Below are positions 39,777-48,365 of a DNA stretch of 64,000 bases, piece by piece. The notes below the pieces were generated by a model. It was not told the DNA's origin and ran no database searches. It saw nothing but the letters and a program-made list of their open reading frames with translations. A program made the translations under genes and the position numbers. The first letter of the stretch is position 1, and each line of letters starts with the position of its first letter. The stretch comes from Chloroflexia bacterium SDU3-3 (GTDB lineage Bacteria > Chloroflexota > Chloroflexia > Chloroflexales > Roseiflexaceae): the NCBI GenBank assembly GCA_009268125.1, contig WBOU01000010.1, forward strand, positions 1 to 64,000, in the 5' to 3' direction.

Positions 39777-41297
39777 ATGCTAGACCGCGTCGATCTTGAC
39801 CGAACGGTCGGCAAAGAAACGTATCAGCGGCAGCTACCAAAACTGCAGCAGCGGCTGTACGATCTCGAAGTTGAGATCATCGCTTCCAAGATACCGATCG
39901 CGATTATTTTTGAAGGGTGGGCTGGCACATCGAAGATCGGCACAATCGGGGCGCTGAGCCGACGGCTCGACCCGCGCGGCCTGCGCATCCACCCGATCAC
40001 CCCGCCCACCACGGTGGATAGCGAATACCCCTGGCTCAAGCGCTTCTGGCAGCGCATCCCCGCCTATGGCGAGATCGGCATCTTCGACCGCTCGTGGTAC
40101 CGCGAGGTCATCAACGGGCGCGCGCAGAAGAATCTCTCGCAGGCCGACTATATCCAGCAGTGCGAAGACATCGTCTCGTTCGAGCGCATGCTCAACGACG
40201 ATGGCGTGATCTTGCTCAAGTTTCTGCTACACATCTCGAAAAAAGAGCAGCAGAAGCGCTTCGAGGAGATCTTGGCCAACCGCGTCACCGCCATCCAGGT
40301 GACGCCCGACGACCTCTGGCAGCACAAGCACTACGACCGCTTCTGGCATGTGACCGAGGATCTGCTGGCCCGCACCACCACGCCCAACGCGCCCTGGACG
40401 ATCATCCCCGCCAACGACAAGAGCTACGCTCAGCTGACCGTGCTGGAGCAGATCATCGCCAAGATCGAGCAGCGCGTGCAGCCCCACGAGGGCGCGACCA
40501 TGCCCCTGGCCGCCCGCCCCGCGCCACCCGCGCCGCCCGCCCCCGCCAGCACGCCGCCCGCCTACGACGCGGCCAGCGTGCTGCGCTCGCTGGACCTGAG
40601 CAAGCGGCTGGATGAGCAGGACTACAACCACAAGCTGGCCAAACTGCAGGCCAAGCTCTACCTGCTGGGGCTGGCGGCCTACAAGCAGAAGCGCCCGGTG
40701 GTGCTGGTGTTCGAGGGCTGGGATGCGGCGGGCAAGGGCGGCACGATCAAGCGGATCACCGAGCCGATGGATCCGCGCGCCTATGTGGTGCACGCAATCG
40801 CCAAGCCCGACGGCGAGGACAAGCAGCACCACTACCTCTACCGCTTCTGGCGGCGGCTGCCCCAGCGCGGCCAGATCGCCATCTTCGACCGCTCGTGGTA
40901 TGGCCGCGTGCTGGTCGAGCGCATCGAGGGCTTCGCCCGCACCGACGAGTGGCAGCGCGCCTACGCCGAGATCAACGAGTTCGAGCGCCAGCTGGTGGAT
41001 TTCGGCACGATCATCTGCAAGTTCTGGATGCACGTCAGCCCCGGCGAGCAGCTGCGCCGCTTCGAGGAGCGCAAGGCGGTGCGCTACAAGGCCTGGAAGC
41101 TGACCGACGAGGACTGGCGCAACCGCGAGCGCTGGCACGAGTACGAGGATGCGGTGGAGGACATGGTGCGCTTCACCAGCACGCCGCGCGCGCCCTGGCA
41201 CGTGGTCGCCTCCGAGGACAAGCTATACGGTCGCATCCGCACCATCCGCACCATCGTGCGGCAGCTTGAGGATGAGCTAGGCAAGGTCAAGCTCTAG
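39777..41297 (+). CDS. Two-domain PPK2 (polyphosphate:AMP phosphotransferase type)
   Basis: A 506-residue fusion of two PPK2 domains joined by a Pro/Ala linker (about 240-262). PPK2 class II enzymes use polyphosphate to phosphorylate AMP to ADP. The C-terminal domain has a complete P-loop, FEGWDAAGKGGTI with Lys320, and Walker B/lid FDRSWYGRVLVERIEGF. The N-terminal domain keeps FDRSWY but its P-loop is altered to FEGWAGTSKIGTI (Ala49 for Asp, Lys53 kept), so it is probably inactive or regulatory. This one-good-one-poor arrangement is known for two-domain PPK2 proteins. It provides a way to recharge AMP independent of adenylate kinase. ATG 39777 follows GAGG. Confidence 0.92.
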   Translation: MLDRVDLDRTVGKETYQRQLPKLQQRLYDLEVEIIASKIPIAIIFEGWAGTSKIGTIGALSRRLDPRGLRIHPITPPTTVDSEYPWLKRFWQRIPAYGEIGIFDRSWYREVINGRAQKNLSQADYIQQCEDIVSFERMLNDDGVILLKFLLHISKKEQQKRFEEILANRVTAIQVTPDDLWQHKHYDRFWHVTEDLLARTTTPNAPWTIIPANDKSYAQLTVLEQIIAKIEQRVQPHEGATMPLAARPAPPAPPAPASTPPAYDAASVLRSLDLSKRLDEQDYNHKLAKLQAKLYLLGLAAYKQKRPVVLVFEGWDAAGKGGTIKRITEPMDPRAYVVHAIAKPDGEDKQHHYLYRFWRRLPQRGQIAIFDRSWYGRVLVERIEGFARTDEWQRAYAEINEFERQLVDFGTIICKFWMHVSPGEQLRRFEERKAVRYKAWKLTDEDWRNRERWHEYEDAVEDMVRFTSTPRAPWHVVASEDKLYGRIRTIRTIVRQLEDELGKVKL

Positions 41298-45916: not shown

Positions 45917-46195
45917 TAGAAGGTTGACAAGCCCAGCCGAACTCCCCATCATGACAGAGCATAGTTTGCTCGCCTTGCGCCCGCCTAGGGCCGCAGGGCG
46001 AGGAGAAAACGGGCGGCGGCACTGGGCTGGGCCTTCCCGCTACGGGATGGATCATGGCCAGCGCCAGCGATCTGGCACCTTCGCTGGATGGGCCAGGCGC
46101 CAGCGGCCCAGCCCACCAGCCCTCGGCCTTCCAGCGACCCAACTCACGAGCGGCCAGGATGCCCAACAGTGCATCGTGACGCTCCCCCTTGGCAC
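45917..46195. other. Non-coding region between divergent smc and sigma-like gene
   Basis: The divergent gap 45817-46195 is about 380 bases. Apart from the smc promoter it holds GC-rich sequence with GGGCTGGGCC-like short inverted motifs (46025-46110) and no clear promoter for the plus-strand gene. Small frames overlap on both strands; none is supported. Confidence 0.5.
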
Positions 46196-48175
46196 ATGAC
46201 ACACCCCATGCCCTCGATAGATGATCTTGTGGAGGCCAGCTACGACCAGCTGTTCCGCCTCGCGCTGCTGCTCACCGGCGACATGCGGCGCGCCGCGCTG
46301 CACATCCAGCAGGCCGTGCGGCAGGCCGCCAGCGCCCCGGGCCAGCCCGAGCAGGCGCTGCTGCGCGCCATGCTGCCACGCGCCGCGCGCTATGGCCGCT
46401 GGCGGCCCGGCCCGACCCAGCGCCAGCGCGCCGCCCTGCCCAGGCCCCAGGCCGATGCGCTGCTACGGCTGCTGGCCGAACTGCCGCCCGCCACCCGGCT
46501 GGCGGTGGGGCTGCACTACCTGCGCGGCCTCGCCCCCGACGAGCTAGCCGCGATCGCTGGCGAGGGTGCCGAGGCCGCGCTGGCCAGCTTCCGCGCCACG
46601 GCGGCGCTGCGCCTGGGTATCGCCCCCGCCGACACACCCCCGCCCGACCTGGTGCAAATGGACGCGTGGCTGCGCGGCAGGCTGGGGGCCGACGAGGCCA
46701 CCGCGTTGCGCGGCCAGATCTTCGCCGACGAGGAGACCCGCGCCCAGCGCGACGCCATGCAGCGCGTGGCCGAGCTGCTGCCCATAGCCATCGCCGGCCT
46801 GTTCGCCATCGACCCGCCCGCCGCGCCACAGCCCGCCCCCGCCGCGCCAAGGCCGCAGCGCCCCCGCCGCGCCAAGGCGCTGGCCGCGCTGGTGGCTGGC
46901 GTGCTGCTGGCCAGCGCGCTGATCATGGTGGTGCCAGGGCTGTTCAGCCCGCCCGCCGCGCCTGCGCTAGCGCTCAGCGCGGCGGATGTGCTCGATGCCG
47001 CCATCCACCGCTTCGACCAGGGCCAGCGCGGCAGCGGCACCCTACACGAGCGCTACCGCGCCGCCATGCCAAACGGCGACGACATCACCATCGAGCGCTG
47101 GTACGACTTCGCCAGCCCCAACCGGCTATCGGTCGACGTGCATAGCACCCGACGCGCCATGTTCGCCCTGCGCGCCGACGGCACTGGCAACATCCAGTAC
47201 TACGGCAGCCCGCGCTGGGCGCGCTTTGCCCCCGACCAGGCCCGCAACCTGGTCTACCAGATGCCCCCAGCCGAGGCCCAGGCAGCCATGCCCGTGCTGC
47301 GCAGCGCGCTGGTGGCCGACAGCCCGCACATCAGCGAGCGCAGCATCAAGCCCGACATCGGCGCGCTCTACCTGGCCCAGGCCCGCACCCAGGGCGCGGG
47401 GCTGCTGGGCAACACCCAGATGCTCGGGCGCGATGCGCTGCTGCTGCGCTACACCACCACCATGCTCCCCGGCGAGCAGGCGGATGGCGAGCAGCGCCAG
47501 GTGCTGCTCGCCATCGACCGCGAGCTGCACGCCCTGCTGGATGTCACGGTGCTAACCGAGCGCGGCGGCGAGTCGGCCAGCCAGCGGCCATGGTACGCCG
47601 AGCAGATCGAGCTGGTGGAGAACGCCCCGGTCGGCCAGTTCAGCATCGCCAACACCATGGATGCCATCCAGATCACCGGCGTGCGCAGCCTCAGCCTGCC
47701 CAACATCCCCAGCGAGCTGTTCACGACCCTTGAGGAGGCCCAGCGCAGCAGCACCAGCGCGCTGCTGGTGCCCACCGCCCTGCCCGAGCCGATGCGCGGG
47801 CTGCTGATCGACCGCAACACCAGCGGGCTGCGCCCGGCCTACACGCTGCTCTACGAGGGCGAGTTCCGCACCATCACGCTCTCGCAGGGCGGCGACGTGC
47901 TGCAGTACGGCCAGCTCGACCCCGCCGAGCATAGCGCGGGCGCGTACCGCTACAGCCTCGGCAGCACCCCAGGCAGCAGCATCGCCGTGGTCAGCAGCAT
48001 CGCTGGGCAGGGCCAGCCGATCAGCATCCAGTTCGATGACATCTACAGCACCCCCGAGGAGCGCGCGGCGGCGCTGGAAAACATCATCACATCGCTCACC
48101 CCGGTGACGCGCGACAATGTCCAGGCGCTCCAGCAGACCCTGGTGCCAATGGCCGTGGCGGGCGGCGCACCCTAA
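46196..48175 (+). CDS. Membrane-tethered sigma-70-like protein with extracellular LolA/MucB-like domain
   Basis: A 659-residue protein of mixed architecture. Residues 6-45 resemble ECF sigma region 2 (SYDQLFRLALLLTGD) and 88-140 resemble region 4 (LAELPPATRLAVGLHYLRGL followed by an HTH-like stretch), but both are degenerate: the usual AEDLVQETF motif is replaced and the recognition helix is Ala-rich. A helical segment (151-205) and a Pro-rich linker lead to one membrane helix at 228-250. The remainder (about 260-659) is extracytoplasmic and has the look of LolA/MucB-type lipoprotein-sorting or sensing folds (ERWYDFASPNRLSVDV). ATG 46196 or 46208 is the start; neither has a good ribosome site. 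I infer a sensor derived from a sigma/anti-sigma fusion; DNA binding is unproven. Confidence 0.7.
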   Translation: MTHPMPSIDDLVEASYDQLFRLALLLTGDMRRAALHIQQAVRQAASAPGQPEQALLRAMLPRAARYGRWRPGPTQRQRAALPRPQADALLRLLAELPPATRLAVGLHYLRGLAPDELAAIAGEGAEAALASFRATAALRLGIAPADTPPPDLVQMDAWLRGRLGADEATALRGQIFADEETRAQRDAMQRVAELLPIAIAGLFAIDPPAAPQPAPAAPRPQRPRRAKALAALVAGVLLASALIMVVPGLFSPPAAPALALSAADVLDAAIHRFDQGQRGSGTLHERYRAAMPNGDDITIERWYDFASPNRLSVDVHSTRRAMFALRADGTGNIQYYGSPRWARFAPDQARNLVYQMPPAEAQAAMPVLRSALVADSPHISERSIKPDIGALYLAQARTQGAGLLGNTQMLGRDALLLRYTTTMLPGEQADGEQRQVLLAIDRELHALLDVTVLTERGGESASQRPWYAEQIELVENAPVGQFSIANTMDAIQITGVRSLSLPNIPSELFTTLEEAQRSSTSALLVPTALPEPMRGLLIDRNTSGLRPAYTLLYEGEFRTITLSQGGDVLQYGQLDPAEHSAGAYRYSLGSTPGSSIAVVSSIAGQGQPISIQFDDIYSTPEERAAALENIITSLTPVTRDNVQALQQTLVPMAVAGGAP

Positions 48176-48280
48176 ACGTGCTGCCCCATCCTCACAGCAA
48201 TTGCAGTCGCCAATCTTTCCCCGATGGCTCGTTCATGCTCATAAGCAAGAAGAGCGTCCGGGCCGCCCCAGCGCGCTGCT

Positions 48281-48315
48281 GCGCGTGAGGCCCGCCTCTG
48301 GCGGGCCTCACGCGC
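48281..48315. terminator. Perfect 16-base-pair hairpin
   Basis: GCGCGTGAGGCCCGCC and its exact complement around TCT. No T run follows, so it may terminate the upstream gene imperfectly or protect mRNA ends. Confidence 0.65.
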
Positions 48316-48365
48316 ACATCACAGACACATAAGCCACTACATAGGCATGTTGGCGGCATCCGGCG

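Follow-up and report, generated by a model that had tools for sequence, protein, structure and literature searches.

In the ECF52, ECF53 and ECF48 proteins (e.g. SCO4117 of Streptomyces coelicolor), a sigma domain, a zinc-finger anti-sigma domain, a membrane helix and an outside extension are joined in one chain (PMC5826349, PMC8999054), and the outside part of ECF52 is proline-rich and carbohydrate-binding (PMC5826349). IutY of Pseudomonas putida (ECF243) is a sigma factor fused to a membrane anti-sigma factor, from which the functional sigma is freed by Prc and RseP in a siderophore cell-surface signalling system (PMC5411451). All of these proteins are known or presumed to function as sigma factors (PMC8999054, PMC5826349, PMC5411451). 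PhyR belongs to the alphaproteobacterial general stress response; its sigma-like domain shows an ECF fold in which the promoter and RNAP regions are degenerate, and it titrates NepR (PMC8103513).

Here we analyzed a stretch of 64,000 nucleotides from Chloroflexia bacterium SDU3-3 (hereafter the window), one gene of which belongs to a Chloroflexales family of membrane proteins that is sigma, anti-sigma and RseB-type sensor in one chain, parts that are separate proteins in other bacteria. The RpoE-RseA-RseB and AlgU-MucA-MucB systems contain the same three kinds of part, and the outside part of the fusion is RseB/MucB-like in both domains, but those systems have a working sigma factor and make each part as a protein of its own, whereas the fusion is a single chain with a degenerate sigma part. 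With ECF52, ECF53 and ECF48 the family shares the sigma part, anti-sigma domain, helix and outside part in one chain, and with IutY the joining of a sigma to a membrane anti-sigma; in contrast to the sigma-active ECF52/53/48 proteins of Actinobacteria, its sigma domain is not intact and its outside part is RseB-like. The likeness to PhyR (PDB 9cb6, 2lfw, 3t0y) lies in an ECF fold that has lost RNAP and promoter contacts, and PhyR is the best PDB profile match. However, PhyR is a soluble protein whose gating depends on a receiver domain and on phosphorylation and whose target is NepR, whereas the fusion carries an anti-sigma domain, a helix and an RseB-like part, and a domain search of the window protein found no receiver domain. 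In the papers that were searchable, we found neither a description of the Chloroflexales family nor the combination of an RseB-type sensor with a contact-less sigma part.

The gene (Table 1) has two possible in-frame starts, of which the later ATG is favoured because homologues begin near it. The 659-aa protein begins with an ECF-sigma-like head (regions 2 and 4), followed by a class-I anti-sigma domain; a single membrane helix then leads to an outside part made of two RseB/MucB-like domains. Because the anti-sigma domain sits between the sigma part and the helix, the chain corresponds to sigma plus anti-sigma plus RseB. The original prediction, made from this sequence alone, had described a sigma-like part joined through a membrane helix to a LolA/MucB-like domain; that observation was confirmed and extended by the anti-sigma domain, which it had overlooked, and its interpretation stands in part. 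The proposed membrane helix corresponds to a hydrophobic stretch in the sequence, and the low-confidence AF2 model has a helix at residues 228-243.

Table 1. Features of the fusion gene, with positions in the window and the basis of each assignment.
Feature	Positions	Strand	Basis and remarks
Whole gene, 659 aa	46196..48175	+	open frame; 695 aa if started from another in-frame ATG at 46088
Part resembling sigma region 2 (residues 8-70), without the RNAP-clamp and -10 positions	46217..46405	+	profile matches, alignment with ECFs
Part resembling sigma region 4 (residues 83-147), without the recognition-helix positions	46442..46636	+	profile matches, alignment with ECFs
Class-I anti-sigma domain, residues 148-205; four zinc ligands lost here, present in 37/41	46637..46810	+	NCBIfam, profile, alignment
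Single membrane helix, about residues 226-252, after basic RPQRPRRAK; N-terminus inside	46871..46951	+	read from sequence
RseB-N/LolA-like outside domain, residues 258-500	46967..47695	+	fold comparison (RseB, LolA, LolB rows); sequence weak
RseB-C/DUF4367-like outside domain, residues 505-645	47708..48130	+	fold comparison (RseB, MucB rows over 504-639); hhalign E 0.0025
Perfect 17-bp inverted repeat behind the gene; transcription unit probably ends here	48280..48316	.	no T-run, so unscored as terminator

Profile comparisons place the origin of the head among the ECF sigma factors. A profile of 41 family members had the PhyR-type response regulator 9cb6 as its top PDB match (E 5e-8) and also matched SigE (E 3e-7), SigL and others, in each case over both sigma regions. 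Additionally, the sigma slice of these members aligned over 142 columns with ECFs of their own genomes, which had been picked independently by Pfam search (hhalign 97.4%, E 1.2e-11); E. coli RpoE alone gave E 6e-4 against this slice in profile-profile comparison, and unrelated or mismatched controls for the sigma and middle slices gave hhalign E values of at least 0.13. Members of the 41 scanned singly also match NCBIfam sigma models. The window protein alone weakly matched the TIGR02983 SigE family (E 2e-5, residues 8-124) and, under the cut-off, Pfam Sigma70_r4_2 (E 0.0047), and ECF sigma chains lead the fold comparison of the modelled cytoplasmic part, weakly (E 0.05). The original claim of sigma regions 2 and 4 in the right order was thus borne out by the family profile and hhalign matches, and the HMM comparison, on which the sigma assignment had been said to stand or fall, did find sigma similarity.

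Although the fold is related, the residues with which a sigma factor works have been lost. In an alignment of the 41 members with 13 true ECFs (12 own-genome ECFs and E. coli RpoE), the conserved RNAP-clamp, -10 and -35 contact positions are missing from the family: D35 of region 2.2 is kept in 0/41 and F41 in 3/41, W58 and N65 are each kept in 0/41, and in region 4.2 R131 is kept in 1/41 and R134 in 0/41. The core positions A33 and R101 are kept in 41/41, and L59, L93 and L96 mostly. Ten positions of the RNAP/DNA contact regions are kept at 75% in the true ECFs (97/130 cells) and at 3.7% in the family (15/410); at twelve core positions the corresponding values are 80% and 69%. This grouping was chosen after seeing the table, which makes the single positions the safer evidence. 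Furthermore, the mean net charge of region 4.2 goes from +1.8 in true ECFs to -1.0 in the family. For ten pairs, dN/dS in the sigma parts was 0.05-0.47, similar to the rest of the protein. The degeneracy suspected from the single sequence therefore extends to all 41 aligned members, and ECF homology with degenerate RNAP/DNA regions is the combination known from PhyR. The idea of a decoy is supported by the lost RNAP/DNA positions together with the kept fold positions and purifying selection: judging from these alignments, the head is probably a membrane-anchored decoy whose polymerase- and DNA-binding residues are gone and which selection still preserves. Core polymerase, which had been proposed as a partner, does not hold up as well; since an anti-sigma domain was found between head and helix, such a domain, its own or another, is the likelier partner. 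Overall, we consider it likely that the head is a sigma mimic working via anti-sigma binding.

Many full-length relatives have a C...H-x3-C-x2-C motif, the mark of a zinc anti-sigma domain, after the sigma-like part and ahead of the membrane helix, and in the alignment the window protein has the same segment minus the ligands. NCBIfam anti-sigma models were matched by 15/41 and 6/41 members; the window protein itself matched none of them, and its assignment to class I comes from the aligned relatives. The middle slice also aligned with stand-alone anti-sigmas (hhalign E 6e-11), a comparison that is partly circular because the stand-alone set was gathered with the family profile itself, which does not apply to the NCBIfam result. 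In the PDB, the middle part of the family profile weakly matched the anti-sigma ChrR (E 0.09). The ligands are absent from the window protein and three relatives, and one event in the window's subclade (tree support 100/99) would suffice to explain why all four are gone. In this regard, zinc-free class-I anti-sigma domains are common (PMC7406223).

The outside part, as modelled, resembles RseB/MucB in both domains. Confidence is low in both AF2 models, which were built from three and two sequences (mean pLDDT 47 and 46). In Foldseek, the three-sequence model had four MucB chains at the top (E 1e-6 to 6.5e-5) and the next row at 1e-3. In the VIA list, E. coli RseB came first (Z 8.0, rmsd 4.7, 160 residues, model 280-638, covering both domains), with MucB, LolA and LolB further down. 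A Z of such size alone could reflect a common arrangement, and the weight lies in the same family leading both lists with the right domain order, a LolA-like N domain followed by an RseB C domain. In sequence searches the outside part matched no known family: no Pfam match to LolA or MucB_RseB was found in the window protein, nor one to LolA among relatives in 60 genomes, and the sequence of this part, when compared on its own with the PDB, gave no match. LolA plus DUF4367 lipoproteins aligned collinearly with the outside part, weakly overall (hhalign E 0.014) and with E 0.0025 for the C-terminal domain. The structure prediction that had been suggested as a check thus puts MucB/RseB first and supports a LolA/MucB-like outside domain, from a low-confidence model and with weak similarity in sequence. 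Free LolA plus DUF4367 lipoproteins also occur in Chloroflexales (L135-L148), with an RseB-like layout and without sigma or anti-sigma part.

The search for the same fusion in relatives, likewise suggested at the outset, gave full-length or near full-length copies in 45 of the 82 Chloroflexales genomes, so the fusion is not a chance event. An initial search had already given full-length relatives from the window's own family and order, and a narrower alignment search two named loci, in Chloroflexi bacterium AL-N1 and Roseiflexaceae bacterium ES-bin-105. The fusion was not seen in other orders of the class, where no match was better than 8.6e-12; a scan of the phylum scored two candidates per genome and is therefore not exhaustive. 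The tree has two fully supported paralogous branches; the window's genome and two others (G006, G436) each hold one copy of both, and therefore the fusion predates the split. In another order of the class (L160), unfused sigma and anti-sigma genes abut in the same order as in the fusion. Several variants were observed. A long subfamily of about 1070-1100 aa (L090:5544-12097, L091:4956-8171, L156:1167-4391, L011) has about 400 additional C-terminal residues without Pfam match, and L090 has two tandem copies. In a shortened member from the small-genome genus g8 (L158:1140-2624, G016:C52), region 2 is eroded and region 4, the zinc anti-sigma domain, the helix and part of the sensor are kept. A different single-chain fusion occurs in another order of the class (L164:2256-4322, G448:C67), where a sigma region 4 (Pfam E 1.9e-9) is followed by a hydrophobic helix and a WD40-like propeller. 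In G012 (L009), what looks like a sigma mimic standing alone is cut off by the contig end and is uninformative.

An SMC gene lies upstream and divergent, and a YkuD L,D-transpeptidase, a PAS histidine kinase and a response regulator follow downstream. Only the SMC and transpeptidase genes recur beside the nearest relatives, and across the family the neighbours vary. Joint transcription with the transpeptidase is unlikely, because the 17-bp hairpin and a promoter-like TAGGCA-18-TATAAT lie between the two genes, and a joint operon was rejected on these grounds. The transpeptidase and the two-component pair, from which a link to envelope stress had been read, are thus real neighbours with the identities given originally, but the sequence suggests that they are probably separate transcription units, and the functional link is not supported by the transpeptidase's own promoter-like site and the varying neighbours. 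A MoxR-type AAA gene lies directly upstream of the fusion in about 12 loci, sometimes overlapping it, an arrangement present in many genomes that we read as Chloroflexaceae; it is absent next to the window gene and in Roseiflexus-type loci. In G029 (L083:2724-8968), the fusion gene forms a dense run with genes encoding a MoxR ATPase, a DUF2079 membrane protein and a PP2C phosphatase. Across the loci compared, the family has no conserved sigma or anti-sigma partner among its neighbours. Site-2-type (M50) proteases are encoded in the genome. Elsewhere in the window, positions 39777-41297 encode what, on visual inspection of the translation, we take to be a protein of two tandem polyphosphate-kinase-2-like halves.

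The explanation that we find best overall, at somewhat better than even odds, is a membrane-anchored sigma mimic of the PhyR type, kept masked in cis until an envelope signal opens it. Neighbouring genes for a sigma factor, an anti-sigma factor and an RseB-type protein would have fused to give rise to it. In the resting state, the head would be held closed against its own anti-sigma domain, and by analogy with RseB the outside part may read an envelope signal such as a lipid, a lipoprotein or a misfolded protein. This signal would open the head/anti-sigma pair or trigger intramembrane proteolysis, and the exposed head could then bind another system's anti-sigma domain and release the true ECF sigma of that system, much as PhyR acts on NepR. 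We lean, on balance, towards an output in which the head titrates the anti-sigma of another system; that no partner gene is conserved next to the family speaks against it. The wider proposal of a transmembrane partner switch, in which an RseB-type envelope sensor directly exposes a membrane-bound mimic that titrates anti-sigmas, giving an anti-anti-sigma route that needs no phosphorylation and is conserved across Chloroflexales, is tentative, at slightly less than even odds.

The main rival to titration in trans reverses its direction and makes the head a mimic as well: the head would plug its own anti-sigma domain until a signal sensed by the outside part displaces it, and the anti-sigma would then capture a true ECF in trans. 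The zinc ligands kept in most of the family and the match of the domain to known anti-sigmas fit such a gated anti-sigma, as does the g8 lineage, where the head is eroded in region 2 while region 4, anti-sigma and sensor persist. We still regard it as unlikely, since in the window's clade the ligands are lost while the head stays, a point softened by how common zinc-free domains are (PMC7406223), and the loci show no conserved sigma partner close by. Less likely still is a genuine, divergent ECF sigma with unusual contacts, tethered to the membrane and freed by regulated proteolysis like IutY or as put forward for ECF52. Its domain order is that of ECF52 (sigma, zinc finger, helix, outside domain; PMC5826349), and the M50 proteases would suit the logic of IutY (PMC5411451), but the clamp, -10 melting and -35 recognition positions are lost across the 41 members and the Pfam/NCBIfam sigma matches lie far under cut-off.

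It is improbable that the head is a structural relic, serving only as a dimerisation or docking platform (e.g. for the MoxR ATPase) in signalling without sigma or anti-sigma. The adjacent MoxR genes would agree with this, but their absence beside the window gene and in Roseiflexus-type loci does not, and every full-length member retains both the sigma and the anti-sigma domain, which is what binding between the two would predict. Lastly, the degenerate sigma part might suggest a decaying pseudogene fusion. We give this hardly any weight: with two old paralogous branches, copies in 45 genomes, open frames and purifying selection, it is refuted for practical purposes by distribution, tree and dN/dS.

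If the preferred reading of a masked, membrane-anchored mimic is true, the sigma mimicry known for PhyR would have a membrane-embedded counterpart, with sensor, anti-sigma and mimic in one molecule. A sigma-anti-sigma fusion that has been retained after losing its sigma contacts would also make the anti-sigma-binding role separable from the polymerase role for study. The fusion also makes RseB-type sensing testable in bacteria that are generally regarded as lacking a lipopolysaccharide outer membrane.
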